Notes under the pieces: generated by a model
What the model saw: the letters and a program-made list of their open reading frames with translations, nothing else
Databases searched by the model: none
What the model was told of the DNA's origin: nothing
Part shown: positions 22,623-64,000 of the stretch, in pieces
Numbering within the stretch: the stretch's first letter is position 1
Layout: the number at the start of each line of letters is the position of its first letter
Made by a program: the position numbers and the translations under genes
Source of the DNA: Turritopsis dohrnii
Taxonomy: Eukaryota > Cnidaria > Hydrozoa > Anthoathecata > Oceaniidae
Length of the DNA stretch: 64,000 nt
Direction of reading: 5' to 3'
NCBI GenBank assembly: GCA_027922465.2
Contig: BQMF02000372.1
Location: 389,425 to 453,424 of the forward strand

Positions 22623-22625
22623 CCC

Positions 22626-25600
22626 ACTAAAAACATTTATCAAACAAACCTCTTTGTTTTTCATTTAGACATCTGATATTTGAAAACAATTCATTATCAG
22701 AAACTTCAGGCATGCGAGACAAAAATATTGCTGTTGATTCAGTAAATTAACAGGACATTCCTCAGAATCAGAAATATTCAGGGGTTTGCATAATTCTTCC
22801 GTACCTTCAACAGAATCTAAGGACGAAGGGTTTTCTTGAATGAAATTATAAATTTCATCAATTAAATCAGCACCTCTCTCAAATTTTGCTCTATTTTCAT
22901 TCACAGTCTCAAGAACAAAACTGTTAGCTAACTTATCAACAAAACTTCCATTAGAACCTTTCAGATCACTTTCTTTGCGAAAAAGATAAAAAAGCAAAAG
23001 TAAATGGTAGGCATATTTCTCTGGGTATAAATTTTTATTTGGTTGATAGTACCTTAACACAAGTTTGGAATTTCTCCTTTGAAGTTTTTCTTTGCTTTTC
23101 ATGCAAGTAATAGATTTTGGCAAAGCAGAGGAACTGTCAGTCATTTCTGCAGAGTCATCTCCTATCAATTCTGGTTGGTAGTCATTTTTGCTTCCAAAAA
23201 TTTTGTAATACAAGGAAGCAAATTCAGCAAAACAAAGAGAGTCCAAAATATCATATTTTCCTTTCATAAAGGATTTATCAGGTCTATCCATATAGCGATC
23301 AACATTATTGGACTTGAAAATATCAGTGCTTTCATCTGGTAGTTCACTTAATTCTTACCTTGATTTAAGTAATCTTATTCTATTTTCAGGTAAATTAGTA
23401 TTAACATAAATTATGCCAGGACAACATTTACGAAGCCAAAGATTTTCAAGTGACAAATACACAGCTTCTTGGACAGAAACATGTCTTGTTTGCGTAAAAC
23501 GATAGGCTAATTTTTTCATTGCCGCTCTTGCATGTAAATTTTGTTGTTTTATTTCTTTTGCTGCGAGTTGTAGGGCATTTGAAGTAGCAGTTATGGCTTT
23601 GTAATAATTGTAGACAGGTTGCAAGTCCATGTTAGCTTGCCAAGCTTTTAACATAGTAGGGTTGTAATTGTTAACAAAACAGGCATTCGGCATACGTTTA
23701 AGATGAATCTGAAAATCATCATCACTCGAAATTTGCAAGGCCCAGTAATAACTATGATCAGGTATTTGAAGATATTGTAAAATATCTTTAATTGAGATTT
23801 CATCTTTAAAAGTTTGTTTGTTAGGATCTAAAAAGACATCAATATAGTTTTTTACACATGTCAGTATCCTCTCTCTTTCTGATAGTATAGCTGTTTTTTC
23901 GAAAGTTGTTTCACAAACTAATGGTATTGCAACAATAGTTTTATCAGTAAAAAATCTCCCAAAATGATAACGACAATTTTGATTTTTACACTTCCTACAA
24001 GATTTTGAGTGACAATGAATTTGATATGTTTTGACTAGGTTGTGAAGAAATGGATCCCTATCTTGATTTGGTATTTCAGCAGTGACTATTTTATCAATAA
24101 ATGCAATGTATATATCAAGTGACTCCAGTGACAAAATTGGTGGATTTTTTATCCAAACAAAACTATGGATGTGAGGTGACCCACGCATCTGAAATTCAAC
24201 CCTGATAGCATAATATGTTACTTTTCCCAGTGGTCCTAAATCTATTAACACTATTTCTCTAAAAAAAGTTTCAACGCGATATTGAAAATGTCGAGCTAAC
24301 AAAACAGGATTGCTATTCAAAACCTTGCACCTTTCAAAATAATTTAATGAATCAAGTTTTTTATCAATTTCAAGACTGTTGAGTTTAGCTATAATTTCAA
24401 CTAGCTCATTCCATCTTAAATCAGCACATGATAATGTTAAGAAAAATGTTGGACAACCTAGCTGTTTGACCATTGCAAGAACTTCTAATTGGAATCACTT
24501 CCAATATGCTGGCGTTCCACGTACAGTTTTCATGAAGCTAAATCCTAGATTACTAGCCACTAAGTTTTCAATAGAATCGTTATAATTTTTAAATGAGCTT
24601 GCTGTGTATGAACCACTGCACTTTTTCATTGCAAAATTGATTTGATTTTGAAAAGCTGTTTGTTGAATTAGAAACTGTACAAAGAATATGTAATCACTTG
24701 AAGAAGCAAATATTTGTTTATAGTTCAAAAGTCGTTGATTTACATACTTTGAAAGTGATATACTGATATCTCTTTCCATGGACAAACCATTTCTACCATT
24801 GCTAAAAAACTGTGGAAAAGCCATCTCCTCACAATTGGAATCAGCTAATATTGATACTGGTGTAACGTCTTCACCAGGAGCAATTTCATAAGTTGTTGCA
24901 CTATCTTCTGCAGCAAAATCATTTGTAATAACAGTTTCATTACATGGCTGTTTAAATTTATTCAAAGGGTCATCATTTTCTTCATCAGATTCTGGATTAT
25001 CATTTGCATTGCTTAAAGATCCAGATTCATTAACCTCAAAAACATCTGCAGTGTTATTGCAATCAATATGAATATCATAATAGAAGGGATTATTTTGTTT
25101 TAAGTATAGTAATGCAGAAACTAGTTTTGAACTAGAGACTGGTTCAAAAAAGACATGGCCTTTAAAAGAAAGTCTACGCTTGAGTTTAAGTAAGACAACT
25201 CCATTTTCACTTAAAGGGCGTGGTAATGATTTTGCAATATCAACACCATCAATTGGCACATTGCAGATAGAGCCGTGAATTTTAGGTGATTGACCCCTGG
25301 GCATAACTAAAATCCTTTTAAGCAACATTCTCTTGCAAATTAAAAACACTTCCAATTTGTTTAGGCACTTTAATTCAGGAGGAATGTCATTTACTTCCAA
25401 GTTATTTACAACCGCTTGACAGGGGATTATACTTTTCTTACATTTAGAGAAGCACGTTGTACATATGTAAAGTTTGCTGTCAGAACTTTCTATATTTGTA
25501 TTAACTGTGTCTAAAAATGACTTTTCAAAAGCATTATAGCTAATATACTCAAAGTTTAGAGCTGAATTGTTGTGCAGAATCTCTTTAACGCAACTTCACC
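22626..25600 (-). pseudogene. HUH Rep domain and linker (RepHel N-terminal half)
   Basis: The frame runs from a zinc-ribbon-like N-terminus (ICTTCFSKCKKS, about 25460) through the Rep domain to a linker. Rep features are YWK-x-FQLEVL, CPTFFLTLS, the HUH motif in RGSPHIHSF (about 24175), and a tyrosine-rich NYNP...VYNYYKAI segment in the position of the catalytic tyrosines. A LYPEKYAYHLL-type linker leads to the helicase. In-frame TGA (24497-24495) and TAA (about 23357) codons and frame breaks near 25595 and 22745 show decay, but the remaining order is colinear with intact relatives. Confidence 0.8.
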
Positions 25601-31736: not shown

Positions 31737-34242
31737 CCCTTTGGCGGTCTAGGGGGGTCAAATTGACCCCCCCTGCTATTCCGGACGATTTTGAACTGAA
31801 ATCGCGGGCTTTCCGGCTGAAATTTCGTATGTACAGTTTCAAAGTATCAGACAATCGATTAAAGCCGTTTTTGATTGGTTAAATTTTGTTGTTGTGCTAT
31901 TTCAAGACTTTAGAAAATTGAAAATTTTGAAAATAAACAAATTCAAAGATGGCTTCCAACCAAGCAGTTAGGTTGACTACAGAGCAAGTTTTAGAAGCTA
32001 TTCTCAACTCAGATGAGGATCAATCTGATCTTGAATCTCTCTCAGATGATTTTAGCAGTGATGATAGCTGTTTGGGAGATGTTATAGATGAAGAGGGCAA
32101 TGAAATAGACCTAAGTTCACTGCCAACCTTCGGTCAACACTGTCTTCCGGACCCATGTAATAGAGATAGCTTATTGATTGGCAATGTAAGTACATATTTG
32201 TCTTGTGTATATAACCCAACTACATTAGTAATTAAACAATTCTTCTCAATTTGTTCTAATAATGCATCAGTCAGTTTCTGCTCCTTGTGTAAATAATGTT
32301 TCAAATTTTTATTGCAGAATTCTGGAAATGAAACCATTCTCTTACATTTTACCTAGGTTGATATTGATGATGAATGTGAAGCACTATACAAGCCCTTGTG
32401 CTTCAAAACAAAGCCCTGCAAAACTTGGAAGCAAAACAAGGACATCATCCAAACCAACTAAAAATGGCAAATCGAAAGTCAAAAATGTAACAAAAACGAC
32501 GATAAAAAAAATAACAAGAAAAAAAAATGTAACCGCTGAAACAACGAAACCAAACAAGAATGATGAAGCTAACAGACTTTGGAAGAATGTAGATGAAACA
32601 TTCCTGCATCCAAATGCCAATACCCATTTTGTTGAGTATGTGGGTCTGAAAAGACCAGCATATCAAGCTGACTCACCATTGGAGTGTTTACGGTTATTTT
32701 TGACCGCGGAGGTACTCAATCAAATTGTGACGGAAACAAATCGGTATCGTGCCCAGCAGAATGCTGCAAAACCATCACCATTGCCATGGCATGATTTGAC
32801 AGTAGAGGAGCTCTTGGCATTCTTTGCTATCATTCTAGCAATGGGGTTGATAAAATTACCAGAACTTGAGCAATACTGGCGTCGCAATTCAATTTTCGAA
32901 ATGCATTGGTTTGGTTCTATTCTTACCATCCGGCGATTCAAACAAATTCTTAGATATCTTCACTTGAGTAATAACGAGGCTGACTTACCCCCTGGTGATC
33001 CACACCGTGATAAATTGTTCAAACTTGGAATGTTGCCATCAATTTTATCACAAAGTTTTTTTGCGATGAATGGTGGAAAAAGGTTTTCTTCCGTCTTTTA
33101 GAATTGTGTGTCGTGAATGCTTTCTGTATTTATAATGCTAAACATCCCAAGTTCAAAGAGTCAAGGAGATCTCATCAAAAATTTAGAGAAGCCCTAATTT
33201 ATGAGCTAATCCAACCACTGATCAACAAGAGAGATCAAGAAGAAGCAAACAGCAACGCTACAATCCCAGAGAACAGACCGGTCAAGCGCAAAACTGTTTC
33301 AAGCACAAGGCTGAAAGGGAAACATTACAGCTCTGAGACTGAAAGACGAAAAAAATGTACTGTATGTGCTTATCAAATCAACCAAAAAACTGGAAAAAGA
33401 CGTGACACTAAAACACGTAATTTCTGCGAAAAATGTAATGTTCATGTATGCAAGAAATGCTTCAAGAAATTTCACACTACTGTAAATCTCAAAAAAAAAT
33501 GACAGTAGAAACGTTGATAACTAAGATTGGTTTATTTTCTTGTTGATATATTATATATTTTATGTGTTTAGGTGGTTATGATAGGGTTTTTTTGGTAAAA
33601 ATTTCTAAAGAATTTATGTTCCAGTCAGAATTTTCACAATGTTACGGGATATTTTTTACAATATTTTCTTATTTTTTCTAGGAAAATCGGTTGCCATGGC
33701 AACAAAATGTATAAAAAAACCTATTTTTAGTAGTTCTGGTAATTGCATTTCAGAAACATAAAGTGATTACAAAGTTTTACCAGTTATTGCCAAATAACAA
33801 AGCGGATACCCCTCTCAAACCAAAAATCATGCGAAAACTGGTCAATTTTTTTATTTTACGTTTTTGAGAGTTACTTGACAACGACAAAAGATTTTTCATC
33901 TCTTTTTTTTTGTATTTGTCTTCAACATATTGTAGATAACAAAAAAGTATGTTTTGATGGGCTATATGGAGTAAATTGTTACAATATTTCTTAGAATATC
34001 TGAAATTTTCCTAAAAAATCACAATTCTGGCTACCATTTTACATTATTTAATGGCTAACATTAGTTTCCATGGCAACAACAAAAAAATTTCATTTATGTC
34101 ATTTGATAGATATTTTTATTAGCTTTCAGAATATATATAGTTTTATAGGGTTATCTTTTCCATGTCAAGATTTATATTACTTTAAATTACTATGTGTACA
34201 AAATTTCTGAGAAAGTCCAAAATCGAAAAGACCGCCAAAGGG
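31737..34242 (+). mobile_element. piggyBac element with TIRs and TTAA duplication
   Basis: The ends are CCCTTTGGCGGTCT and AGACCGCCAAAGGG, perfect inverted repeats, each flanked by TTAA (31733-31736 and 34243-34246). The element is 2506 bases. Just inside the left end lies a perfect palindrome (31751-31772, a run of G, TCAAATTGA, a run of C). It carries one transposase gene lacking its catalytic core, so it could move only with help from an intact relative. Confidence 0.92.
31949..33502 (+). pseudogene. piggyBac transposase with deleted DDD core
   Basis: The N-terminus (MASNQAVRLTTEQ, acidic stretch) is followed by a GT-AG intron (32186-32356), then a frame change near 32400-32450. The frame next reads the N-terminal half of the piggyBac transposase domain: NRLWKNVDETF, VEYVGLKRPAY, LTVEELLAFFAI and FKQILRYLHLSNN. 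At about 33072 the sequence jumps from ILSQSFF directly to WWKKVFFRLLELCVVNAF, a segment near the end of the domain. The region that should hold the three catalytic aspartates, about 250 residues, is therefore missing. The C-terminal cysteine-rich finger (CTVCAYQ ... CEKCNVHVCKKCFKKFH) is complete. Confidence 0.85.
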
Positions 34243-39195: not shown

Positions 39196-42100
39196 CCCCT
39201 TAACTGTGTTTGACAGATATATCCGTCGTTACTATTAGGCCATAATTTTTGTTTGACGGATATTTCCGTCCCTGAGGGTTACATTTTACAGATCTTGGTT
39301 TTGAGCCTTGGACCCACTAAATCGGGTCAAAACACTTCCTTGGGTCCTTGGTCTGTGTTTTTGACTGTTTTTCATTTATTTGCGTCTGCGCAGGACAAAA
39401 ATGTTTCACAACAAACATGGAAGAAGGAAGCAGTGCAGAGCCTCCAAAAAAACGTTTTTATACTGTTGAAGAAGCAGCTAAATTTATGCTTGAAAGTGAT
39501 TCTGAAGACAACTATTCGGACTTTTCTGACTCTGGAAGTGAACTAGAATGCAATATCGAGTCAGAAACAGATGAAGAGATTGTTTTGAGTGCAGAAGAGA
39601 CAACAAAGACAACTGTTGAGGAAGCACCTCAAGTTGATTTTGGTGTTGAAGATGTTCCAGTGCAGCAAAATAATGAAGTAATATGGACTGATGAACTCCC
39701 AGAGAACTTTGCCCCAGGGAACAAACGTTTTGTGGTTCCCCTGGGGTTAGTGAAATAGTTCAAGATGATGATCCTTTATACTTGTTTGAATTATTCTTTG
39801 ATGATGAACTTGTTGAAGAAATACTTACCCAGACTAACTTATATGCTGAACAGTACTTACAAGCACATAAAGATAATATAAGTGAAAGATTTAGAATGAA
39901 AAATTTCAAACCAATCCTAAAGGAGGAGCTGAGAGTATCTTTTAGAATTATTTTGTATGGGGTAGTGTGGAAACCAACATTTGCCCATTACTACACGGAA
40001 AATGCTATCTTTAGTACACCGATGATCAGGAAAGTTTTGTCGTACAACCGATTTCTGATGATTGAAAAATTCCTGCACTTTGTTGACAATACAACATTAT
40101 GAGAAAACTATGACAAAACATCCAAAATTTTGCCATTACATGATAATCTCTCCAAAAAGTTTTCATCATTATACACTCCAGAGAGAAATATAAGTATTGA
40201 CGAATCGTTACTTTTATGGAAAGGGCGGTTATCGTGGAAGCAATATATTCCTAATAAACGAAGTTGCTTTGGTTTGAAATCTTTTGTTTTATGTGAAGCT
40301 TCCACTGGCTATATATGGAAAAGCTTCTTGTACATTGGCAAAGAGTTAACAGAAAAGTTAGATCAGACCCTCGGTCAATATAATTATGTCGCAAGCAAAA
40401 AGTTGTACTATCGTTGATGGACGGTCTACTTGATAGTGGCTATCGTTTGTTTATCGATAACTGGTATACCTCTGTTGAGATTGTTCAAGTGTTATTACAA
40501 CACTATAAACCCGGGTAAAAATTTTTACCAAACTTATCTTCGAAAACAGTAGGTCAAATCCACCATTCCCATGTACATACCCCGTGACGAAAAAACAGAT
40601 CATAGAATCACAGTCCAAAAGTGTATCTATGTTGTAGAGCTCGAAAAACTGATCAAAAAAGTTTATGGGATCGTTTCGCTACGACCAACCGTTACAGAAT
40701 CATTGCAATGCAATGATTCCTTGTGATCATAAAACATCTGACACAGCAATACATAACACAGAACTATATACCCAGCCATACAAAAGCAAACATTGAATAA
40801 CATTACAAATATGCGAATTGAAAACAAATCTATTCCTTCTAACGGTGTGTCTTTTTTTCAGAATTTTTTAAATGGATAATCTGTTATTGACCAACCATCG
40901 ACATCATGATATCAAACCATGAGTTTCATTTATCTATTGTTAATGTATTTTTTATTTTGCTTTTCTAAAAGAAAAAAAGATTTCGAATGCATATTGATAT
41001 TACAGAAAACCTAATCGTATTATTATGTAGATATTGAAAGAAAAAATTCCAACTTAAAAAATGTTCGAGAACAAATTTACCTTAAAAATAATAATTAAAA
41101 ACACAAACATAAAGACAGAAATTTGTATAGCTAAAGAATTTTTAACAACTGAAAACATTCTGTGGAACCATTTTTAAAAACAGGGTAAAATCTCCTCTGC
41201 TGGCTAATTCAAAGCACAACTAAACAACCCTGCATTCTTTATTTATTCAGCATACTAACTGTGTTATAACTAAATAGATATATGACATTTCAACTTTGGT
41301 TTAACTTCAAACATAAGAGGATACCTTTCAAAACCAATTCACATCATCATCATGTTTGTAAACAACAACACATTGATCATCTTCTGCAGCCATTTTCAAA
41401 CACTTCTAAACTGTTTACTTTCTATATTCATACCTGTAAACAATTATCAATATCACTTTTTATAACACTTTATTTACTTTCCAGCACACTTTTCTACTGC
41501 AAACACATAAAATGTCCTTGCTCCTACTCTCTATTTCTTTGTTACTGAAATTTGTCTGCCATTTTTACAACACTCAAAGACAAAAACACTGGCTTCTAAG
41601 TTTCCCAGCACTGTTATTATATCGTTTTTTATGTAAATCTCCCGTTAATAATCTATATATACTAATTCGCTTTGTGCATCCCACTTTTATTTTAGAGAGT
41701 GACATATTTGTTTAATTTTTACGGTCATCGTCCTCTTATGTGCGCGTAAAACCACGTAGAGGCGAGAGACACTTTTTTCACGATCATTCCAAAAGCACAT
41801 ACACTTTTTTGATCAGTTTTTCGAGCTCTACAACATGGGTACACTTTGGAGTTGTGATTCTATGATTTATTTTTTCGTCACGGGGTACGTACACGGGAAT
41901 AGTGGATTTGACCTAATGTTTTCGAAGTTAAGTTCGGTAAAAAGTTTTTACCCGGGATACTTGTGTCTTTTATATACCTAAATTACGTAAATAAACCCAC
42001 CAAACTTCCCATCAAAAGATCGTCGTGAATGTGACAAAATAAACATCATCTTTTCTGCAGCCATTTTTAAACAACTTTCACTGCACTTTGCACTTTGCAC

Positions 42101-43740
42101 TGCACGTCTGAATAGTAATACTTGATACTCACACATGATCTACAATACAATACAATAACAGTAAAAGTATAACAATAAAAATTTTAAATATATATAAAAC
42201 TTTCCCGTTTCTTCTTCAAAAGAGCAGCAGAAATGAGGAACCTTATCAACGGACTCTGTTGCTATGAATTTTTCAGCCAATCAAAATAGCGCATTTCAAG
42301 AGTTTTCCTTTATTAGCCAATAAAAACGATCAGCGCCGGGGCTTCCCCATATAAAAGATCCTTTTGTAAAACCACCGTTCCCTCATTTTGATGCAGTAGG
42401 AAACGGTTTTATTTGGGCATATAAGCCCATTGGCAAATGGACTTACTACCGCTATATGACCACGATTAAGAAGATTTTGACCGTAAATTTTGAAAAAAAC
42501 CATCACTCTCTAAGTTAAATGTGTTACACACGCACGCGGATTAGTATAGCGCGATAGTAATCGCGTAAAACATTTTTACGGCTTTAATTTCGAAAAGGAT
42601 GTGCAGAAATCCCACGTTCCCGTGTATGTACCCCGTGACGAAAATTTTAATCACGGAATTGTGAATGGAAAATGTACCCATGTTGTAGAGCTGGAAAAAC
42701 TGATCAAAAAATTGTATGGGGTCGTTTCGCTACGACTAACCGTTGTAGAGATATCGTTGATCAAAGATTTTGATGTCGTCATAGCCGCAGTACCAAATAA
42801 AATTTAGGCCCAAATTTTGCGTCACTCCATCACCCGTTTCGCGGACCCTAAAAAACGTCAGTTATCCCTATTGGTTCTCGAGATGTTTCCCTAAAAACGT
42901 CGCGTTCGATTGGGGATGCAATGCAATGATTTCCCGTGATCATAAAACATCTGACGTCAAATGCCACGTGCTATTATACTAATCGTGAATGTGTCTTGCG
43001 TGGTCGAACTGCCGCTATATGACCACGATTTAGAAGATTTTGACCATTAAAAAAACAAAAACAAAACACTCTCTAAGTTAAATGTGTTGCACACAACGCG
43101 AATCAGTATATATAGATAAAACAGATTGTATTGGTACCTTACGGAAAGATCGCAAGCATCTACCTAAAGATATCACAGGCAAAGATTGCAAGCTGAAAAT
43201 TGGTGAACGGGCTGTACGTTACGAAACACACACTGGGATAATGTGTACTCAATGGCGAGATAAAAAAGATGTTCATATGATGTCTACTTGTATTGAAGAT
43301 GGAGTTGTTGGAGTAACTAGAGCTGGAAAACAAAAAGAAATTCCTTTAGTTGTTGATATTTACAATAAAAGCATGGGAGGCGTGGATCGAAGTGATCAGA
43401 TGCTAACATCTTATGACATTGAATGGAAACGTCATTTTCCATGCATTGTACCACCAACTGAGAAGTCACAACGTCCTTCCAGAAGATGGACTGTATGTAC
43501 AAAGAATAAAATTAGAACTGATACTAGATATCAGTGCAAAAAATGTGATGCTGGTTTGTGTGTTGCACCTATCTTTGAGTTTTATCACACAAAAAAAGAC
43601 TTTTCAATGGCTTACGCTTAAATTTTTGTGTAAAATTTCAAATATTTCATGTGAAATTATAACTTTTAGAATTACAAAGTATTATCTACCTTATTTCTTT
43701 CCCATATTTAGTGTCCTAGGGGGCTTAAAAGATGTTTGAC
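39196..43740 (+). pseudogene. Second piggyBac transposase gene, split by 2.6 kb of repeats
   Basis: The left end is TTAACCCCTTAACTGTG (TTAA at 39192-39195) with two near-copies of a palindromic GACGGATATTTCCGTC motif inside. The frame from ATG 39417 (MEEGSSAEPPKKRFY) carries an acidic stretch. A one-base shift near 39738 leads to the core: FELFFDDELVEEIL, SIDESLLLWKGR (first Asp), FIDNWYTS (second Asp). The C-terminal part resumes at about 43117 with MGGVDRSDQML (third Asp) and a cysteine-rich finger, ending at 43621. Lesions are an in-frame TGA at 40100, a shift near 40395, and the insertion at 40510-43116. The right terminal repeat was not found. The family differs from the element at 31737. 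Confidence 0.85.
40510..43116. mobile_element. Composite repeat insertion inside the piggyBac gene
   Basis: The coding sequence breaks after QVLLQHYK and continues at KTDCIGTLRK, with TAAA on both sides. The insert contains an inverted pair (40510-40680 and 41790-41956, both ending CCCGGGTAAAAA), a copy of repeat family X (40740-41530), and two tandem copies of another repeat (42400-42560 and 42960-43116). On the minus strand the right edge reads TCTATATATACTG, like a Helitron 5' end. The outer left edge carries a hairpin GGTAAAAATTTTTACC. No coding capacity seen. Confidence 0.65.
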
Positions 43741-49797: not shown

Positions 49798-49838
49798 CAT
49801 AATGATAATGATAATGATAATGATAATGATAATGATAG
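49798..49838. repeat. (AATGAT)n microsatellite
   Basis: About seven copies of a six-base AATGAT-like unit. Confidence 0.85.
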
Positions 49839-49839
49839 C

Positions 49840-51640
49840 GATCTAGTAGTATCTTTTCATCTTCATGATTAAACGACTCCCTCTAAACAAATAACGAAAT
49901 GTGTCCCTACCTAACACTGGGAAATTACTTTTTGTGGCAAAAGGAATGACAAGCCCAATTATCAGTACACGAAGTTCTCAAGCCATGTTTCAAACGACAC
50001 TCTATTTCAAATAATACTATCATATTAAAATATCTCTGAAACGAAAGAGACAGAAATTTTTGGGGAGATATTTCGGGAAAGTATTAAAGTACCATAGGGG
50101 CTATTAAATGATATAAGTTTCAACCAAAGTTTCCAATAGTAAAATTTGAAAATATGGCATTTTCTCGGAAGATCGGGTAGGTTGTACCACTTAGGAGCGC
50201 ATTAACACATTCCATTAAAGCCTTACTCTCTGAAAATGAATTTTCTGTCTGTTATACGTTTATTAAATCTAGGAAGGCAGTTGTGACCGTGTTTAACCAA
50301 ACGTTAAAGCAGCAAAATTAAGAACCCATTTTTGGGGTAATGAAGGCCAAATTAGGCCAAAATTGCCATGAAAATGATTTCAAATGCGGAATAATACTAT
50401 AAGTTTTAATAGTGCGTTGGCTCAGCAAACTGTAATTTTTTGCGCACCCTTTTACGCACTGTTTTCATTAATGGTGTCATGCCAACTAAGTGTACAACAA
50501 CAAAACGTGGGGTGATGGCTAGCAAACCCTATGTTTGAGAGTTGATGCTTGTTTTATACCATGCTTTTACTGTTAGCAATTCATGCATAGTATGCTTGGA
50601 ACTTTTAGAACACAGCTACTTTGCCTTTTCATCAAGCCCGTAACGGTTATTAAGCAATTTACAGAGTGTCAAATGTGTTTTTTATGCTATAACTACACAT
50701 GATTTCTTTCATATTGAATTTTTGTTTTTGCTGTCTTGGCTGACTGTATGTGCTTGGCTATAGAGTCAAATTCTCTCTAACTTGAAAGAAGTTCAAGGTC
50801 ATTCAACCTATCATTTCTTTACAAATGAACCTCTGTATTTCCAATTCTCCACTAATCAAACATTTTTTGCCCCCCTTGATGTTCAAGTTACAGAGAGTGT
50901 ACTGTAGATGATTATCTCGATCTTTTTAAAGAAAGTACTAGCTACTGTCATATGTCCTTGGGTACACAAAACTTTAGAATCCTTTCTCCTTCCTTATAGA
51001 TGAGTTTCTAAGTGACGTGATGTTTATAAACATTAGTGTTTTTGCTCGATAACTGCTGCTGTGAGTTTCAACATAAATGCTTAATAGATTAAGTCAATTT
51101 CCTACCAATATGCGCACGCATCTTGGTTGGCAATTAGATGCTCTCTGCACACTGTCGGTTAAACCGGCTCTCAGGAGGCGTTTTTAAGACAAAAAAAATT
51201 ATTAAAAATAATACTCATTAGCACTCGAAATCTATTTTTGTGAAGTTTATTAAATTTTTAGTTTAAACAGATCTTTAACTGGTAATTAACATCAGAAACT
51301 CATCTATTGAAAGCCATTTATATATACTTCTTTCAACATGACCATTAAAATCTCCAGCTTTCACTGCAACTTTTCTCCTAGTTTCCTGTAACATTGATCA
51401 AATTATCTTAGAACAAGTCTTTTTGTGCATCACCCAAACCAGACTGAGGAGTATGTATATATTGAGATAACTGAGAGAACTCTCTCCTGGACCATAAGCT
51501 CAATCAAAATTAATGCCTCACTTCCCCTCACTGTCCTGTTTACATCAATAACTTTATCCATCCACTTTTCAACTAAGGAATTCCAACCCTTTCGAAACCT
51601 GTTTTTCTAGTTTTTCTAATTTTTTTCTGTTTTGCTAATT
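49840..51640. other. Intergenic stretch upstream of the recombinase gene
   Basis: No coding frame of note. A splice acceptor (CTAATTTTTAG at 51636-51645) precedes the start codon at 51652, so a non-coding 5' exon and the promoter should lie somewhere here. I could not locate them. Confidence 0.4.
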
Positions 51641-51651
51641 TTTAGGCAATT

Positions 51652-54600
51652 ATGGTTAGGTGCGTTGTTTGCGAAAATAGAACAAGTAATATTAAAAAGT
51701 CTTTCTATGGTGCTTTTAGCATTTGTGAAAAATGCTATGGTAAGTAAACCTTTATTTTGCTGATGTATCAAATGACCACTGTTTTCCTTCATTGATTACA
51801 ACATTTTTTATTAGATGAACATTACGACCAAGATTGTCTTTTGAGTTCCTCCAAAAAGGAAAATAAGCTGGCAATTGGTAATCTCTCTGATGTTTTGTCT
51901 ATTGTTACAATATAACTTGTGTTTTACATATCACGTTTTCACGTATTATGTTTCACTATCACAGCTTTGGCTTCATTAACTGATGACTTAATTCAGTCAG
52001 TTGGAGAAGGAGATACCTTAAAAATGATCATGTCTGGTGAAGTGAGTCAGTTTTACGTAAAATAGATAAATATAAATATATCATTTTCTAAGGTTTACAA
52101 ATCAATGATTACAATATGTGATCTATTTTATATAAGGCTAGTAAAATACTAGAAAATGACAGGAGGCACACCTAATAGCCATTCAATTAATCAAGGAGGT
52201 TGGCACCAGATTAAAAAACAATTAGCTCAAATAACATAGACTACTCACAAACAAGTAACAAATCAATATTAAAATATTAGCCAAGGTACTAACCAGTCGA
52301 GGATGATCTGAAAGTATGATCTAAGTCACTTATATATTTTGTCTTAAGAATCCCATTGCATAATGCTGTATTAATTGCCACTTATTTTAATGGTTTTTGA
52401 AGAAAATTAGCTATCGACACTATCTGTATCACAAGGGAAGCAAATTTATCAGTATGTTTTCACTGTTACTTTAATATTTATGTTTTTTGTTGTGAAGATG
52501 GTGGTTTCAGGGTGGTATATACTTGCTCATTTCAGAAACAATATGTGATGCCCATCTGTTACTCCTTCTGTCCGACGAACAGCTATCCCAACTTAATAAG
52601 ATCCTATTTCAAAGGTTTAAAAAGAATGTTGTAAGTACATTAGTACAAGTACTTATTTTACAGATGTTTTATGGTATTCTAATGTTAAAATTTCTTTCAG
52701 AAATCAAATTACATTGATTATGTCCTGTTACCAGAAGCAGTGACAGTAATAATAGTTGAACTAACAGGTTGGAAACGTCTCAAGGTAGTATTGATGTTTA
52801 CATATTTTAAAATTGTTTCAAGATAATGGTTTGGTAATGGTTTTCATAAAAAGAATTAAATTGAAACTCTAGGTAGAATTGTTTCTTGAATCATACTTCA
52901 ATGATGAAGATGTTGATGAAGATGATGATGATTCAGGTAAACTTCTTAATCAATTTTATCCTTATGCACCTTAACACTTGCAAAGGTTGTGATTTAGATT
53001 TGGTTACAGCTAAATGAAATAACTACCCTGATTTTTTATAGTGGCATTGTTTTAAGCCTTTTACATCATAATTATTGTGGTTATTTTTTATGTTTGCAAT
53101 CTAGTGGTACTACTTGATAATTAAATACTACAGTTAGATTTTTTCCTCTGTGAAATAACTAACTCTTGCTCGTTTTCATTTGCTTTCATAATTATGAAAG
53201 AATCTTTGTGTAATCTTGTTTGTCAATTTTCAACAAACATGTAACTAATTATCTAGTTAATTATGTAATTATGTAATAATTTCTGCAACAGGGCAATCCC
53301 GTTAAAATTTAAGAAAATGTGACTTACTGTAAATATCATTTCTTATATACACGAAATGCAACTGCCCTAGTCAGAATGATACTACCAATAATCAAATGAC
53401 CTTATATGTCTATTTACTTTCTGTTGCTTTAGATGACGAAGGTTCATGTTCAACTTTCTTTGATATTGTTAAAAATATGATGATAAGTTCTGATAGAAAA
53501 AGTAAGGATAATACAAATTCTTCTACAACTCAGTAGCAAACATATGTTTTTATGGAGTGCCAAATACTTTTATAGGAAACGTCTTTCAAAATAAGGTGGC
53601 ATATTGGAAAGGTATCATCATTATTGTATTTTCTGGTTTTATGTTAGCAACAAGCATTAATATGACTTGACAAGACATTATAAAAGAACATTATGGTAGT
53701 ATATGACCTACATATGATCTATTTCAAAGTTAATGTGATGATTACTTTTCGATCTATATTGTAGAGAAATTACAAAGTTCAGGCAATGATACAGAAGAAC
53801 TAAGTGACATAGATGATTTTGAAAAACTGTCCCTGGAAGAACTGTATAAGTCCAGAGACAAATTAGAAAAGGCTATCACAGCAGCTGAGAGAGAAATGGG
53901 AGGATCATGTGAACCAGATGTTGAGAAATCACCTGGAAAAGAAATAAAAAAGAGAAAAGGACCAAGGCCCAAGAATAGTGTTCAACAGAAAAGTGTTTTG
54001 TTGAAAAAGAAAAGACTGCTGGAAAAGAAGAAAACAAAAGAAAGAGCTTCATTAAAGAATTATCTGGGATCAGTGGATGCTGTAAAGGAAAGAATGTGTG
54101 GTACCAAGAGAACTTACACGTACAAGTGCCCAGAATGTAAAGAAAGCATCAAGTCTTTACTTTCTAAACACTTGGTAAAGAAACACAAGTACACTCAAGA
54201 AAATGCTGAATTGAAACAGTCTGAAATGAGAGTTCTCTATCTCTGGTGTAGAGGCACTAAACACGGAAAACAATTGCCACTTCCCTGTTACGACTGCAAC
54301 TCATGGCATCTCCGTCTTGATCATCACATAAAGAGAAAACATTTTCAATCTTCAGCTGATTTGAAAAGAGTTTTAAATGATGTTCGAGCCAAGGTATGGT
54401 GTGGTTCTGGGTTAAGAAATTCTTCTCCTGAATTAGAAAATCGACCAGTTGAAATGTCACATGGCACTAAAAAACTAAATGAAACAGAGGAAGAGGAAGG
54501 ATACTCATCAGCGTCCTCAGCAGATTCTTTTATCATCAGAGCAAAAAATACTTCTCTGGAGAACAAGACGTCCAATCCTGATTATATTCCTAGAGGTTCT

Positions 54601-57600
54601 TGCCATTTGACTGCTGAAATTATGGAGAAGTGGGGCATCAATAGTGGAGACTATTTTCACATTTACTATCCATCTAAGGATATGCTTTTCAAAGCTTTCA
54701 CAAGGGACTTGAAACAAAGAAGTGATGGGGATACTGCGAAACAGCACTCTAATCAAGTCTCTTTAATATGGGGGATTTTAGATAAAGATTATCAAATTTT
54801 TCCGAAATCTGTGTTTGCCAACAAGTATGCGTTGCAAGATGTTTATCATCTTCCATCTGTGCGTGAGATTGGTAAAGGTGGTGTTGAAGCTTCTACATTA
54901 AGGGCAAGATATGTATCGTTGAAGTTTTTTCTATCTTTTCTTCGTAAAAGAGGGATATATGCAGGTTTATCAAGAGCCGATATTACTAACTTAGAAGAAA
55001 ATATCAATGACCTGAATAAAGAGCTTGGGCCAAGGATTGCTCAGAGGAAAGTGGAATTGCGACAACACAAAAAGAAACACTTGATGGATGCTGGTCATAT
55101 GATTGCTTATGGTCGCTCTACACATGTTCAAGGTATTATAAAAGGATTGAATAAGGTGATCGAAAATAAAATTTCGATGCAAGCTGCATTGGATTGCCGC
55201 GATTATATGATCAGTGAGCTGACAATCATGAATGGACTGCGAGCTTCAAACATTATAGAGTTAACATTAAACGATGTAGATAATGCGAAGATCCACCCAG
55301 AATACCCAGGTCAACGGGTTATAGAGAACAAGAAATACAAGACTTCTAGCGTATATGGAGAAAAACTTATCGCAGTACCTCTTGCTCTGTATGAACAACT
55401 TCAGAAGTACATCAAATTTCATCGGCCTGTTATCGCTGGTGATAAAAGGTCAAACAATGTGTTCATATCCAATGGTATGAGTTTAAAGATGAACCAAAGT
55501 AATGTTGCTAGTGCGTTAACATCATCGTTTCTCAAGGCAAAAGTATTTAAGAAAAACGACTATGCCAGAGTATCATGCACTAGAATTAGAGTAGCATGTG
55601 CTACCTTCGCTTGCAATCAAGGAGGTGTGGAGATGGACTACCTGGCTAAGCACTTCATGAAAAACAGAGAACAAACAACAGCTGTCCATTACAACATGTT
55701 TGCAAATTACAGACATGCATTGTGTTTGGCCAGTTTAATTGGAGATTCTTTTGAAGTATATGGAGGCCAGATCTTAAAGCCTAAGGTGGAGCAAAAAAAT
55801 GAATTAGCTGAAGCTATGAGAACTACGAAAGAATTACCTACTAAGGAAAAAGTTGTTGAGTGGATGAAGCAACAAGATCCTAATCTTTCGAGAGAGGAAC
55901 TTGGAAAAATGCAGAGTGTTTTAAAAGAGCTCCCTTCCCAAATCAAAGTGTCTAACACTAGCACATTTTATGAAAAGGTAGGCATATTGTTGTTTATATT
56001 CTGTAGTTCGTTATATGCCTTAAGTGTTGAATTTACCATATCACTTTTCAAAGAAACAAAAGCAGCAATGTGAAGCAACTATAACAGAAGATATTGATTT
56101 TGATGTGGTAAGTATCCGATTCTTCTATGCAAACATTAAAATCATGAATTATTGGTAAATTGTTTCTTTACCTATATTAAAGGAAATTGACTTAGATGGG
56201 GAAAGAAACATTACAGAAGACTCACAGTTAAAAGTGAAGGTAACGATTATTTTAAATTCGCGCCAACCATTTTTTTCTAAAGTATTTCTTTATTGTTTGA
56301 ATGTCTCCAGAATTCGCAAGAGCAAAACAATATTTTGGAAACTCCGCATAAGTGTTCTGCAGATTTGAGCGAAACTGTTACAATGCTGACCAAGGTGATA
56401 GTTTTTATTGTTCATGAAACGTTAAGTTATCATAAGCTCGTAGTTCCGTGTGTATATTCATTAACATTTTTAGAAGGAAAATAAGGCAGTCAAAAGAAAA
56501 AATCTGATTAGTAAGAGAGAGGAAAACGATGATGTGAGCGAAAATGTGATCATGCCCACTCCAGAATCAAAGCCAGCAAAGAGGATAAAAAATCTCATTC
56601 ATAAGGAAAAGAAAAACATTTTTTTGGAGGTATAATTCAATTCTTTTTTATTATTCGTAAAACATCAATTCTTTTTAGCCTAAACTTAGTGTTTAATGAC
56701 TTTTGACAGGAACAAAGAAAACAATATCCGAGAAGGGAAGCGAAGAAGATTTACGATGTAATGTATTTTCTGTCTCTCATATTGGAATTTTACTGTTACG
56801 TATTTTTGTTTGTTTGTTTGTTCGTTTCAGAGTGTAATTTTCAATCTTAAATTCTTAATATGCGAAAAATGTGTCAGTTACGGCTTCCCAGTAGTCGTTT
56901 AACTACTTTGGTGTAAATCCAAATTGTGTCTATAGCGTTGCATGCATTTCAAAATTCAGAACGATCCTACCAATCAATTGATACTTAACCTTTAATTTAA
57001 AAACTCACTTTATACAGACTAAATATATCCAGAGTTTCACAATTAATTTCTATTTTGCGCAAGTAAATATATTGAATTTGAAATGTAACTCAATTTCAAG
57101 AATAACTGCGTAAATATAGAACTAGCAATAAAACGCTTGATAAACTGTAATGAACGCCTATTGGGAGCCGACCTTTAACACCGAAAGCCTTTATTTCTTA
57201 TAATTATATGTTAGGTTAGTTGTTGTACGGATGAGGAACTGGAAAAGCATTCGCCTACTACTCATTCGGTTAGTTCAAAGTTTTATTTGGTTTGTGTAAA
57301 GTTTTGGCTCGATGATAGATGCATTATATCGTATGATTTTATAGATGCTTGAATTTGATAGTGCTGATTGTAAAGAAGCAGAAAGTAGTGACAGTGAGCC
57401 GAAAACTCCGTCAGTCAAAAGAACGAAAACATATTCAGTGAAAGAAATTCGTCTGATTAGAGAAAAATGTCTGGAAATAATAAGCAAAGGCCCGGTCACT
57501 GAATATAGAGTAGTTAATGCGCTGGAAGGCACTGACCTTTTAAAAAAGTATACATTTTCTCAAATACGTACTAGAATCATGTATGAACGTAAGAAGAAGA

Positions 57601-57605
57601 AATGA
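51652..57605 (+). CDS. Zinc-finger tyrosine-recombinase-like protein, 14 coding exons
   Basis: Exons 51652-51739, 51815-51877, 51965-52041, 52511-52630, 52701-52784, 52873-52936, 53433-53501, 53765-55977, 56054-56107, 56183-56239, 56311-56394, 56474-56629, 56710-56757 and 57345-57605 all have GT-AG borders and matching phases. They give 3438 bases (1145 residues) without a stop. The N-terminus has two Cys pairs (CVVC, CEKC). Two C2H2 fingers lie at residues 310-329 and 363-381. A recombinase-like region follows: NGLRASN with Arg681, basic NKKYK near 711-714, CTRIR (794-797, where most relatives of the superfamily have HxxR) and Tyr831 in HYN. The tail is acidic then strongly basic. The layout suits a Crypton-type or domesticated recombinase that binds DNA. 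The C-terminal exons are less certain. No terminal repeats seen. Confidence 0.82.
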
Positions 57606-58008: not shown

Positions 58009-58470
58009 ATTGAAGAATTACGTAAGGGCGCGCAGCGCAACTCTGGACTAATCGCAATAACATTGGAATCCCAACGGACGTTTTTATACTACCTAGGTAA
58101 GAATAATACTATCCAAGTCAGAATAATACTATCCAAGTCAGAGCGATCCTACCAATCAAATAATATCTGAACTGATCAAAATAAACATAAAAAGTAGTCA
58201 TAAACCTGATATTTGAAGGGAAGAGCAATAAAGAAACGCATAACCAATTTAGGTTAAAGGATATATATTTTCCTTTACATAATGTACAAGAAAGTTAGTA
58301 GAAGTTTAATACTTGCTTTCTCTGTTACCTAAAATGAAGAGACAAAGAAAATTTTAGTGTTACTCTGTTCCATAGGGCTGGTGGGAGGGACAATCTTAAA
58401 TCGTACTCCGATTTTACTTATAAAATCGGAATTACGTTGCGGGCGCCGCGCGCCCTTACGTAATTCTTCA
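58009..58470. mobile_element. Element with about 25-base inverted ends
   Basis: Left arm ATTGAAGAATTACGTAAGGG then CGCGC (58009-58033). Its complement is at 58446-58470 (GCGCGCCCTTACGTAATTC...). The interior has a 20-base tandem duplication (58101-58140) and a hairpin CCGATTTTA/TAAAATCGG near 58405-58430. It is non-coding. It could be a MITE or the end region of the neighbouring DIRS element. Confidence 0.65.
58101..58140. repeat. 20-bp tandem duplication
   Basis: GAATAATACTATCCAAGTCA occurs twice in direct succession. Confidence 0.9.
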
Positions 58471-58609
58471 ATTTTATTACGTAATCTCCGTACAGATTTA
58501 AGATTGGAGTAGTCGAGACAAATCTTAATAACATTGTAAACCCAGTTTCCATCAGCCTTTGTTCAAAGCTTAAACATGATTCCCAAATAAAGTCGACTCA
58601 TAACTAGTA

Positions 58610-60035
58610 TTATTCTCAATCTGTTTATTATAAAATTTCTGTCATGTTGACTTCCTAGACCACTGACCTCTATTCAAAATGTCCTTCAGAGAGAGTCCTA
58701 ATAGCCTAGCTTTAGAAGTAGAGGCCGACCTACAAAAATGAGCCTTGTACTTCGAGACATCAATACCTGCAAGTTTCAGTGTCAATTTTACCCAATTAGA
58801 AATCGTTGACGATTTAACTTCCTTGTGGGGCTTTAAATGACTAAGCAACAATTGACTTTGGCCATCTTTCCTCCACATATCAGACCTTTGCAGATAGTTT
58901 TCTAGACAATCCACCACACATAAACGCTTATCTTGAGGAAATTCCTTAAATTCAAGCGTAGGAGGAGGCTGACCTTTCTTCAAGTCTTAGTTACTTTGGA
59001 AAAGAAAAACTTAAAGGAATCTGAAGTCCTGACCATAAATCTTATATTGAGGTAGCAAATCTCATGGCATCTACTAGCAGATGATAAAAACAAAAGCATG
59101 GACAGTTTTAAATTTAACTCTCTGTCTGAAAGTTGTGTATTGTCTGGCAATAATTTGATGTAGGATAAAACCTGCTCCACATCCCAAATGAAAACATACT
59201 TAGGTTTTGGTGGGTTTTCATTAAATATGCCAGTCATGAGTGAGCAAACCTGATGTTGGCCCACAGGTTTGCCCTCAACCTTTTGGTGATAAGCCGAAAT
59301 AGCTGATCTATGACTGTTAATAGCCGAGTACTCATAGTTCTGTTCATAAAGAAAAGCCAGAAAATCTAAAACATAATTCACATTGCAGTCATAAGGATTA
59401 ACTTGTTGCTCACTACACCAGCTGACCCACTTCCCCCAGGCCGATTCATAATTAGATGTAGTGCCTTTTCGTCTGGCCTTGAGGATAAGGTTTGAAGCCC
59501 TTGTTGAAATGCCCTCTGCAAGTAAATTTTTCCGGAGATTTTCCATACTACTAGAGACAGTGTCCTGTTTTCCACTAGTGGGTGCTTGTCTCCTTGTGGG
59601 CTCATTAGTAGATCTGGTCTGCATGGAAGGTAAAGGGGTTTAGCTATGCACAATTCTAAAATCTGATTGTACCATGGTTGGCAGGCCAGTTTGGAGTCAC
59701 TAAGATTGCTGTCGCTGACTCCATCCTGACTTTCCGTAACACCCTTCCTATCAATGAAAAGGGAGGAAACATATAAACTAGACCCGTTGCCTTCCAATTT
59801 GTTGGAAGGCATCTGTTGAATGACTCTGAGGATCTGGCTTCCAGGCTACATAAAGAGGAAGCTGATGACATGCCCTTGAAGCAAAGAGGTCCCTAGCCTC
59901 TGGCAAATTTGGCGAAATACTTGAGGGGATAGCAACCATTCGCTGGAGTCCTTGAAATTCCTTGAAGCCCAATCCGCCCTGATGTTCAATTTGCCTGGGA
60001 GATATTCTGCAGTAATCGTGATCCTTTGAAGTATT
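58610..60035 (-). mobile_element. DIRS-type retrotransposon fragment (RNase H end, tyrosine recombinase)
   Basis: On the minus strand the first part (about 60030-59690) reads ITITAEYLPGKLNIRADWASR then LFASRACHQLPLYVAWKPDP, the end of a DIRS RT/RNase H region. From 59624 the recombinase follows: NLILKARRKGTTSNYESAW, LSSASRCHEI (first Arg), a frame break near 58985, then AHFCRSASTSKA (HxxR) and GQWSRKSTWQKFYNK with the Tyr, ending about 58610. All catalytic residues of the tyrosine recombinase are still present, but frames change at least twice. The RT itself is missing, because LINE sequence is joined at about 60030. Confidence 0.8.
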
Positions 60036-61690
60036 GAGAGCATTAATCTTTTGATTGGCCTTGTTACAGATTTCAGATATGTGATCGTTAAACAAGAGAT
60101 TCTGATCAATATTTATGCCTAATAGTTTTACATATCCTGAACTATTGATTGTAGCATTATCAATAGATATAGAATGACTTTGTTTATCACAGCCAAGAAA
60201 CATAGCTTGGAATTTTTCAGGGTTGACAACCATTTTAGACGAAATCATTTAATAACAATAAGTACATCGGAAAGTAGTTTCTGAACAACGGCATCAAGCG
60301 AGATATCACATGAGTACGGAGTGTCGTCATCTGCAAAATTACAGATTTTTGACTCAAGCTGAGAAGAACAAATCAAAAAATATTGAAAAGTAGAGGGCCC
60401 TCACCACTCACTAAAATGATTCCCGATATGTACACGCGTCTTTCTATCAGTGAGGTAACTCAATAAAAACTTCAATACATAGTATCCAAGCCCATATGCT
60501 CCAAGTTTAGCTACTAGTAGGTCATGAGGTAAACAATCAAAAGCTTTTGACAGGTCCATTAGAATAGTGCCTACCTTATCGAAATTTGACAACGATTGCT
60601 GCCAGGCCTGAAGAAGATGGAGAAAAGAATATTGAGTTGAAAAGCCTTTCTAAAACCACAAAGGTATTTTGACAGCTTGCTCTGCATAAATTGCAGTCAT
60701 TGCTTACATACAAGCTTTTCAAAAACTTTCAATAAGGCAGATAATAGACTAATTGGTCTGTAGTTGTTTTTGTCAGTCTTGGATCCATTTTTATGGCCTG
60801 GGATAACATCCGCAAGTTTAAGTTCACTAGGGAAAATACCTGCGTCAAGCGAACTATTGAAGCAACGTGTCAGGATAGGTGTGATCTCCCTAACACTTGT
60901 TTTAAGAACCCTTATTGGAACATCACCACTTACTCTCTTTGCCTCATCTAAGTGTAAAATTTCATGGTACACCTCAGATTCACAAAAATGACGAAACACG
61001 AAGAAGTATTTGGAAGAAATTTTGTTTTGGATGTTGATTACACTTAAGTGGTCTTTAAATTTATTCAGTGCATTGAGAACGGGGTCATCACTGCAAGGAA
61101 TAAAGTTTAAATTCCATCAAAAGATTGGCAATGAGCTGTAATGGTACTAAAAAAAAAGCTGATGAAAGTCGTGTCAATATCCTCGTTGTTTGAAATAATA
61201 ATATCCCTCTCAACTAGAATAATCCTTGATATATTTCCGGCACGCTTCTCTGAAAAGAGAGGCTTGAAAATTTTCCAAAACGATTTACTGCCCGTCAGGT
61301 GCTAACTTTATAAAAGGATATTTTGTGTTCCCTATTCAAACGTACAACCAAATTTCTCTGCGCTTTCTACCTCGATATGTCCTCTAGGAGCTAAGATAAA
61401 TTTGCAATGTTTTTGAGACGAGCTTTTGTCATTATGGCTGCTCGGAGGGTCTTAGTCATATTTGCGCGAAGAAATCTCGTTTTGAGAGGCACTACTTCGT
61501 TTAAAGTTGCCGTAAAAATTCGATGAAATATTTCATACGAGGGTTCACAGTCACCTAAATTTGATAATAGTTTGTCCTGAAAAGTAAAATCTACACCATT
61601 TAAATTTCTATAATTAAACTTTCTAGGCTCAAGCTTGTTGAATGTTAATTTGAGCATTGAATATAAGTGAATGGTGGTCACTCAACCCAG
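60030..61690 (-). mobile_element. LINE remnant fused to the DIRS fragment
   Basis: Minus-strand pieces run from the endonuclease-RT linker (61681-61391, EPRKFNYRNLN, TRFLRANM) to RT blocks. These are VSGDVPIRVLK and NNYRPISLLS (60999-60697), GFRKAFQ, ILMDLSKAFDCLPHDLL (60592-60401), CNFADDDTP (the catalytic FADD, near 60330) and GYVKLLGINIDQ (60248-60040). The frame is broken at each join. The RT thumb is followed without a gap by DIRS sequence, so the 3' tail is lost. Confidence 0.75.
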
Positions 61691-61699
61691 TCTCCACAG

Positions 61700-62335
61700 C
61701 ACCCGTAACTTATGATAGCAAATTTACCAGATGTTCTTCATGGATCAGGGTAACCGCTTCAATATTTCTTCAAGTGATGAATGGGAATGCTAGATATAGA
61801 GCTTTCCTTTCCTCCGACTTTTGGAGTTTGGAGGAAATGTGTATCTACTTTGCGTCTTAATGTATATACTAGGTATCAATGAAACACATTTCAGAAGCCC
61901 GACTGGCTGATGTCAATGATAATAGCAAGGTCAACTTACCAGTATGGTCTTCTATGTTCAGACTGTCAACAAAACGAGGTAGGTCTTAAGTTCAAATCTC
62001 CTGGCATCAAGAAACATATTCTCCTACTGGAATAGAGTTTACTGGATAGTAGTAAGCTGAAATGGTTGAACTATGAATAATAAAAACTCACACATTTTGT
62101 TACACATAGTGAGTTAAAAGTTGTTCTTATAGATCACTAAACAGCTGAAGGGTGTGGTGGTGATCACTAAATGGGGGTGAGCCACCACACCCACACACGT
62201 ACCAGCAAATGAAGTAACAGTCGACATTCAAGCAGAGTGGTAAATCCAGGAGGCTGTACTCCTCGCGAATCCAACTGGATTACCGGATATAGTGGGATTT
62301 GACAATTAACACTCGTAGCTCCTCCATAGCCTCAC
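61700..62335. other. No recognisable gene
   Basis: Short frames only. The 5' end of the plus-strand LINE that follows should lie in the right half of this stretch. Confidence 0.4.
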
Positions 62336-62339
62336 AAGC

Positions 62340-64000
62340 ATGGTTGCTAAAAAGCTGATGAAGAAAGTTAGTTTTATTTCGCAAAATGTACGTGGTTTAA
62401 AAACAAATACGAGACTTGAAATGCTCTTCAACGCTCTATCGAAACGAGAATATATCTGGGGAGCTTGTTTACAAGAAACGTGGCGTGTTGGTCATGAGGT
62501 TTTCGATTATAAAGGTTATAAACTTATTACCGTTGGTCTTGAAACTGCCACAAATAATCGTGGCTCCTAAGAGGTTGGTGTTGTTCTTAATAAAGACGGT
62601 TTAACAGCTTGGAAAGCTGCTGGCTATGAAAAACATGTCATTTTCGGAGCAAGAGTCATGGCTCTGCGTCTCCTCTTCAAAGACATTCATAACAAAGAAG
62701 TTGGAGTATTTCTTGTGTCCGCCTACGCACCCGTTGGCAATGCTTCCGATCAAGAGTGGGACTATTTTGATAACTTATCTTCTTGTATGAATAAAAGACA
62801 CAGTGGAGATATTTTGATTGTTGGTAGTGACTGTAATTCTAGCATTGGTTGCAAATCTGATAATGTAGATGGTCCATTAGGCAAATACGGTCTGAGTCAC
62901 ATGAATGTATCTGGGCTACGCTTTTTCTCTTTTCTCGCAATACACCAATTGAAAGTAGCAACAACATGGTTTAAAAAGAAGATCTAAGCCACCTGGATCC
63001 ATCCCAGAAGCAAAACTCCACACCAAATCGATCACTTTTTAGTATACGGTGAAATGTTCCCTCGAATTTTGAATGCAGCAACAGTGATCATTCAGCGATT
63101 ATCATAAACATTCGAGTAATGAAACGGTTGAAACGCAACATTGACAACCGTAAAAAACTTTTAAATCTCGATTATTCATTACTACCACAATCTGATGTCA
63201 AGGATCGTTTTCATGCAGAAGTTGTGCGCCTCACTTCTCAAAATGACAATCCAAATTACTCAAACCTTGCAAATGCTTTAAAGTGTGCTTCAGAGACAGT
63301 TTTACCGAGAAAAATCAGAACACAGCCAGACTGGTTTAGTGACAAACAGGACATCTTACTCCGACTGATAAATACGCGAAATGTTTATATGCAGAAGGTT
63401 TTACAAAGACGAACCCGTTCGAACTGTACAAAACTACGAGCTGTTCATAAAAAGCTCAAAAAGGAAATCATTGACACAAAAAATGATTGGTTGAGAAAGC
63501 AATGTTTGAATTTAAACTGTTTTGGAACCAAGCAAGCTTGGGACTCAATTAAAAATCTTAAAGGATCACTCACAAAAGTAAAACCATCGTCTACTAAACC
63601 GATGAAAAAATCAGATTGTACCGTATGTAGTACTCCTGAAGATAACGCCGAAGTTTTTCATCTCCATTTCCAATCATTATATGATAGAGAAGGCACATAC
63701 GATCCTAACGTCCTTGACGAATTGCCGCAATGCCAAGTCCATAACGGTCTGGATCATACACCCACAGACAAAGAAATTCGTACAGCAACACTCAAATTGA
63801 AAGACAAGGCCCCAGGAGAATCAGGTATCGTTCCTCGTGTGTTTAAATGTATTATCGACTGTTCTCAGACATATACAGTTTTCAAATCCGTTTTACTCGA
63901 TATATGAAACAATGAAAATATCCCAGAAGAATGGAATCTAGGACGCTCAATTGTTCTACCGAAAAAAGGTGACTTGTCTCTACCAAATAACTACCGAGGC
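62340..64000 (+). mobile_element. Non-LTR retrotransposon, 5' part, runs off the window
   Basis: From ATG 62340 (MVAKKLMKKVSFISQNVRGLK) the frame encodes an EEP endonuclease: LQETWR, VFLVSAYAPVG, ILIVGSDCNSSIG, TWIHPRSKTPHQIDHFLV and SDHSAIIINIRV. From 63119 the linker and the first RT blocks follow (WFSDKQDILLRLINTR, LKLKDKAPGESGIVP, EEWNLGRSIVLPKKGDL, NNYRG at the window edge). In-frame TAA codons at 62568 and about 62987 and a frame shift near 63080 show it is dead. It belongs to a clade different from the CR1-like LINEs in the rest of the window. Confidence 0.8.

Follow-up and report, generated by a model that had tools for sequence, protein, structure and literature searches.

The Starship elements of fungi carry one tyrosine recombinase (YR) near one end together with passenger DNA, and the captain YR belongs to the Pfam family DUF3435. 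Animal YR transposons are poorly known. According to the available passages of one account, Cryptons use a YR as transposase without a reverse transcriptase (RT), with excision as a circle as the proposed mechanism; they are described with an R-H-R-Y tetrad, and their animal groups as having neither a C-terminal domain nor terminal repeats, and neither the Tyr nor the second Arg survives in seven Crypton-derived DUF3504 domains (PMC3212892). The excerpted text of another describes endogenous nimaviruses of crustaceans as virus-sized carriers of a zinc-motif YR inserted in telomere repeats, (TAACC)n, and reports multi-exon genes for YRs related to the nimaviral ones (PMC10871703); as far as their accessible text goes, PMC3537659 and PMC3627910 deal with other elements. 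Here we describe a YR element in a 64,000-nucleotide stretch of the genome of the hydrozoan Turritopsis dohrnii (C372:389425-453424, ending at the contig end; hereafter the window), taken from an assembly that comprises 891 contigs and totals 435.9 Mb. We read it as a DNA transposon that was mobile recently and in which a multi-exon YR is the only intact gene recognised, and put the probability of this reading at roughly 0.78.

The reading is based on near-identical copies at unrelated places with sharp ends beside AAT arrays, on an end anatomy common to three diverged families and on a YR fold in which Arg, Lys, Arg and Tyr are kept. The families compared are family 1, which includes the window, family 2 (50% amino acid identity; contigs C763 and C686) and family 3 (42%; C156 and C326). 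The element is best read as Crypton-like in mechanism; because the active-site His is missing, we do not place it within the Cryptons. The suggestion of a recently active Crypton-type element, made in an earlier note on this DNA, is thus upheld as to mechanism (multiple copies, recent and scattered, with a YR fold and defined ends), but the Crypton name was assumed rather than established.

With CryptonA and CryptonI the element has the YR plan in common. It differs in having Thr for His, so that the R-H-R-Y tetrad is absent, in an exon 14 that would add a C-terminal domain if spliced as predicted (a counterpart is present in family 2, at 40% and E 1e-10, and none was detected in family 3), and in being bounded at both ends, in all three families, by inverted arms and by AAT arrays that may be target DNA. 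When 12 aligned members of the recombinase family were scanned against Pfam, 22 families were matched at E ≤1; DUF3504 was not among them, which is weak negative evidence on Crypton grouping, and neither was DUF3435. Family 1 resembles a Starship in its single YR near one end and its passenger, but families 2 and 3 are 10-12 kb long and the passenger of family 1 consists of dead transposons. DIRS and Ngaro elements likewise have a YR; the window family differs in keeping introns, and no RT was recognised by eye in the unscanned list of open reading frames (ORFs) of family 2, which shows a YR only. Family 1 has passenger pieces resembling long interspersed nuclear elements (LINEs). The closest precedent for the association of a zinc-motif YR with short tandem repeats comes from endogenous nimaviruses: on the parts of PMC10871703 available, they resemble the element in a C2H2-type zinc motif, in the absence of some key YR residues, in having relatives of their YR encoded by multi-exon genes and, if the AAT arrays belong to the target, in short tandem repeats at the insertion, and differ in their (TAACC)n repeats, virus-sized genome and crustacean host. 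The likeness is drawn from their description.

Copies and ends of the element

Exon 8 of the YR gene, which encodes the recombinase core, matches at least 70 stretches of the genome, distant and often broken relatives included. It is found at ~100% amino acid identity on six other contigs (C274, C484, C15, C341, C824 and C427, the last with two stops), at 98-99% on C148, where it is interrupted by an insert, and at 91% on C28. The repeated unit of family 1 starts at 49.8 kb in the window and measures 18-21 kb, a range that arises because further inserts sit in several copies. Six copies span the whole gene and four of these are intact (C372, C15, C341 and C824, that on C15 being 9 bp shorter, in frame); the other two are C427, with its stops, and C148, with its insert. 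With gaps excluded, the five whole-gene copies outside the window diverge from it by 0.12-0.18% in exons, 0.20-0.40% in introns, 0.28-0.50% upstream and 0.05-0.56% downstream; the exons of C274 and C484, which begin at exon 8, differ by 0.03%. Retroposition was rejected, as the copies retain introns.

Contigs C372 and C824 stop at window position 64000 and C274 and C484 start at 53750, so that the latter two may be right halves of split loci. Five left flanks can be told apart (C372, C15, C427, C148 and one shared by C341 and C824), as can five right flanks (C148, C274, C484, C427 and C341). Given the possible split loci and the shared flank, family 1 would represent about five independent insertions. 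The earlier note had held that many near-identical copies with the same flanks would indicate simply an active transposon; near-identical copies there are, but the six readable left ends lie in five unrelated flanks.

The ends themselves are sharp. On the left of family 1, at window 49.83 kb, an AAT-type array gives way to TATAGCGATCTAGTAGTATC, which in the window reads GATAGCG; on the right GATCCTACCAATCAAAT is followed by an AAT array. Family 2 forms a unit of 10.3 kb whose two copies, 98% identical, have an array at either end and lie in different surroundings; family 3 follows the same plan (about 11.5-11.7 kb, copies 97-99% identical). Every one of the 19 readable ends (six left and five right in family 1, two of each in families 2 and 3; the right side of C15 and C28 excluded) adjoins a run of four or more AAT units, replaced in the window by (AATGAT)n. 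With one left flank common to C341 and C824, no more than 18 of these ends are independent. Five AAT/ATT arrays of at least four units occur in the first 49.8 kb of the window, and a random point would lie within 20 bp of one with a chance of about 0.0055.

Beside the arrays lies a 13-bp motif, GAATNATNCTAYC, drawn from the iterations at the right end of family 1, where it recurs with a 20-bp period at 18, 38, 58 and 78 bp from the array. It is found in the right ends of family 2 at 21 and 61 bp and of family 3 at 39 and 89 bp (a looser pattern), and in all three families an inverted copy lies precisely 24 bp from the left array. Families 1 and 2 also have right-end sequence in common. Inverted arms around a core are the layout expected of a YR site, and an anatomy repeated in three diverged families makes it possible to specify a candidate recombination site for testing in vitro. 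Separately, a 0.32-kb piece of the window (50995-51307) is 94-95% identical to stretches within the family 2 elements of C763 and C686, where its orientation relative to the gene is opposite; elsewhere the DNA of the two families is about 65% alike, and the piece is perhaps an independent short repeat.

Family 1 has, in addition, an internal copy of the right-end block shortly after the gene (Table 1), which may mark where a core element of 8.3 kb ends on the right; a further GATCCTACCAATCA lies at window 56963, in intron 13. Between the internal and the distal right ends are roughly 9-10 kb of broken LINE-like and DIRS-like frames (partly scanned) common to the copies, and the likeliest account of this arrangement is that the family 1 lineage switched to the distal right end. 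One frame in the passenger, window 58983-59639 (-), reads by eye as a piece of DIRS-like YR, with a match to Phage_int_SAM_4 under the cut-off.

The recombinase gene and its active site

The protein has the YR fold. The Pfam YR model PF00589 is matched at E 6.5e-5, yet below its cut-off (23.2 versus 27.1 bits), and at E ≤1 by 10 of the 12 alignment members scanned, the window included. We aligned the active sites of 31 sequences, namely the window, 26 proteins from the database and four ORFs of this genome, two belonging to family 2 and two to family 3. The earlier note had read a replaced His in the HxxR box (CTRIR) beside a retained first Arg and Tyr, and R492, Thr605 and Y642 bear this out. 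His occurs at the HxxR position in none of the 31, which have Thr in 29 and Ser, unreliably aligned, in two; the exceptions at Thr605, Arg608 and Tyr642 are P0025 and P0026, whose sequences stop earlier. The residue preceding a conserved FMKN is His in 23 of the 31 and Asn, Thr, Val or Arg in eight. The change from His to Thr is thus an old, family-wide trait and not specific to the window locus, and for this reason CTRIR is no sign of a new role there. It also offers a natural test of the importance of that residue.

As the earlier note had proposed, finger-like Cys/His pairs are combined with the recombinase core: exon 8 holds two of them, which Pfam finger models match weakly (zf-Di19 in 5 of the 12 members, best E 0.058). 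Searches of PDB sequences returned chance-level matches only, the best YR being a 34-residue piece of a XerC-like protein (E 0.29), and two scans of viral contigs, with exon 8 and with a 12-sequence profile, found no relative of the recombinase.

The gene is predicted to comprise 14 GT-AG exons encoding 1142 residues with no internal stop, close to the single frame of about 1145 residues first noted. All 13 introns are GT-AG both in the window and in the five other copies spanning the whole gene. A tract resembling a splice acceptor immediately precedes the predicted ATG. On sequence grounds exon 8 is certainly coding; it supplies 737 residues within an open frame of 779, and 11 database relatives match it at 39-53% identity. 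For predicted exons 1-7 and 9-13 the support consists of splice sites and phase. Against families 2 and 3, segments of exons 1-6 did not outscore shuffled sequences, and the N-terminus of P0014 weakly matches the predicted N-terminal part, a score equalled by 3 of 500 shuffles. Database alignments of P0017 and P0013 extend beyond exon 8, to residues 1083 and 967. The full-length search returned P0001 and P0002 as sole matches, covering 56% of the query, so that the N-terminus was untouched by that search. The only relatives named to species, P0013 and P0014, are both predicted proteins from a hydrozoan, Hydractinia symbiolongicarpus. The former (P0013; LOC130626107; 1243 residues) has a predicted SET domain (E 2.9e-12) downstream of its YR core, possibly a fusion or an annotation join.

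Mechanism and rival explanations

By analogy with YR biochemistry, the recombinase would bind 13-bp arms facing each other across an AAT core, and Tyr642, as nucleophile, would cut at this crossover core. The element would then excise as a circle closed by an AAT junction, to re-enter at an AAT-containing site. Use by the family 1 lineage of a distal right end about 10 kb past the internal one would account for its dead-transposon passenger. If AAT is indeed the crossover core, microsatellite arrays become a recombinase landing place or by-product. We tentatively raise a wider proposal, which we think possible but on balance doubtful: that these elements constitute a new and probably cnidarian superfamily among the YR transposons of animals, marked by an AAT core crossover, family-wide loss of the His and an ability to take a distal right end and with it kilobases of foreign DNA, and are a small animal parallel to the fungal Starships. 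No AAT-bounded YR element is described among the literature matches listed (title and start of abstract), a coverage that largely leaves out subscription journals and Repbase reports.

A number of observations weigh against a recently mobile transposon. The structure model is modest (mean predicted local distance difference test score, pLDDT, 70.9; predicted template-modelling score 0.39), and residues 616-656, Tyr642 included, have pLDDT <50. Only three of the YR families of the genome were examined, the additional two having been chosen for their near-identical copy pairs. The arm consensus was drawn up after the ends of all three families had been viewed, so the background figures for the left arms (3, 2 and 2 mismatches of 11 in families 1-3; 0.075, 0.0105 and 0.0105 for the best match in 40 bp) are optimistic, and the fixed 24-bp distance is the stronger point. 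The C15 copy breaks off within a LINE-like reading frame without AAT, and none of the right-end matches, of which all 20 candidates were scored, was a core-only 8.3 kb copy. Exons differ less than the remaining sequence in C15, C341 and C427 (p about 0.01) and not in C148 and C824 (p 1.0 and 0.83), and the C28 copy displays no constraint (13 synonymous and 39 non-synonymous codons, one stop), whereas the ratio of non-synonymous to synonymous change (dN/dS) is 0.41 within the family 2 pair (21 differences) and 0.16 within that of family 3 (8 differences).

Nor was a clean empty site obtained. On C763 a family 2 element splits a repeat (G000:C763:19699-20124) that has, counting itself, at least 40 matches in the genome; the break falls precisely at the AAT array (...CGCTATAT). 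The one uninterrupted repeat copy read, on C812, has AATTATG and no array, and the right flank on C763 does not continue the repeat as on C812, so that C763 is not evidence of a simple insertion. Landing in pre-existing AAT microsatellites is weakened by the arrayless copy, and the arrays may instead travel with the element or grow after insertion; they may be either target or element DNA, and some insertions may come with rearrangement. The left flank of C341, a repeat stopping at the array, was dropped as insertion evidence when two other copies proved also to diverge there.

The lack of an empty site, together with the arrays at every readable end, the passenger DNA of family 1 and the position of several copies close to contig ends, would suit segmental duplication through recombination between AAT microsatellites, with the YR gene itself a passenger. 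We consider this unlikely, since three diverged families each combine a YR with an arm motif at a fixed left-end distance, families 1 and 2 have right-end sequence in common that blind recombination would not be expected to produce, and such arrays are rare in the window. The earlier note had offered as its other possibility a domesticated recombinase, that is a host gene with a new role, which would here happen to be segmentally duplicated. A multi-exon gene with an intact frame, the replaced His and the lower exon differences in three of the five copies compared are all in keeping with this, but the gene is not single-copy: its near-identical copies on six other contigs have unrelated flanks, many broken relatives exist in the genome and ends of this type recur in other families. 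The catalytic Arg, Lys, Arg and Tyr of the gene are, moreover, kept family-wide, unlike those of the Crypton-derived DUF3504 domains as described in the available part of PMC3212892. The multiple copies and conserved catalytic residues lead us to reject domestication as the principal explanation, and we regard it as very unlikely. A remnant of a larger YR-using element or endogenous virus would recall the nimaviruses, whose YRs, in the excerpted text of PMC10871703, typically combine a SAM-like domain with a zinc-binding one of C2H2 type, retain five of the seven key residues and are associated with insertion in the telomere repeat. Against it stand repeated units of 10-21 kb, the absence of any recognised viral gene from their listed ORFs, most of them unscanned, and the two fruitless scans of viral contigs, and we give it scarcely any credence.

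Features of the element and surrounding remnants

Table 1. Positions in the window of the features of the YR element
Feature	Position	Strand	Remarks
Left trinucleotide array (AATGAT)n, element left end	49801..49836	+	
Left 13-bp arm, inverted relative to right-end copies	49845..49857	-	coordinates hand-derived from C148 copy
Predicted 14-exon YR gene, 1142 residues	51652..57605	+	splice sites, phase, frame
Exons 1-7	51652-51739, 51815-51877, 51965-52041, 52511-52630, 52701-52784, 52873-52936, 53433-53501	+	
Exon 8	53765-55977	+	finger-like Cys/His pairs and YR core; certain coding part
First Cys-pair/His-pair (CPEC ... HLVKKH)	54127..54186	+	motif read by eye
Second Cys-pair/His-pair (CYDC ... 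HHIKRKH)	54286..54342	+	motif read by eye
Arg-I box NGLRASN (R492)	55231..55251	+	R in 31/31
Lys-beta box YKTSS (K525)	55336..55350	+	K in 31/31
Box II CTRIR, Thr605 at His position, Arg608 retained	55576..55590	+	T 29/31, R 29/31
Catalytic Tyr box HYNM (Y642)	55687..55698	+	Y 29/31, gap in 2
Exons 9-14	56063-56107, 56183-56239, 56311-56394, 56474-56629, 56710-56757, 57345-57605	+	
Exon 14	57345..57605	+	C-terminal domain with counterpart in family 2
Internal copy of right-end block, iterated motifs	58084..58160	+	0.5 kb past gene stop
Passenger part of larger repeated unit	58161..64000	.	broken LINE-like and DIRS-like frames, read by eye; unit continues past window

The description of the surroundings as a field of dead transposons proved broadly right, with matches to LINE reverse transcriptase, Helitron and piggyBac-type proteins in broken frames; ten window ORFs were scanned and four had no match. 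A broken Helitron occupies window 20573-25595 (-) in five overlapping or adjacent frames, two of which were scanned: 23358-24494 (-) contains Helitron_like_N (E 1.7e-25), and 20573-22123 (-) gives helicase and endonuclease matches slightly below cut-offs. Transposase pieces, which we take to be piggyBac-type, lie on the plus strand at window 31937-33499, 39321-40414 and 43082-43618, with DDE_Tnp_1_7 matched in 32232-33098 and 43082-43618.

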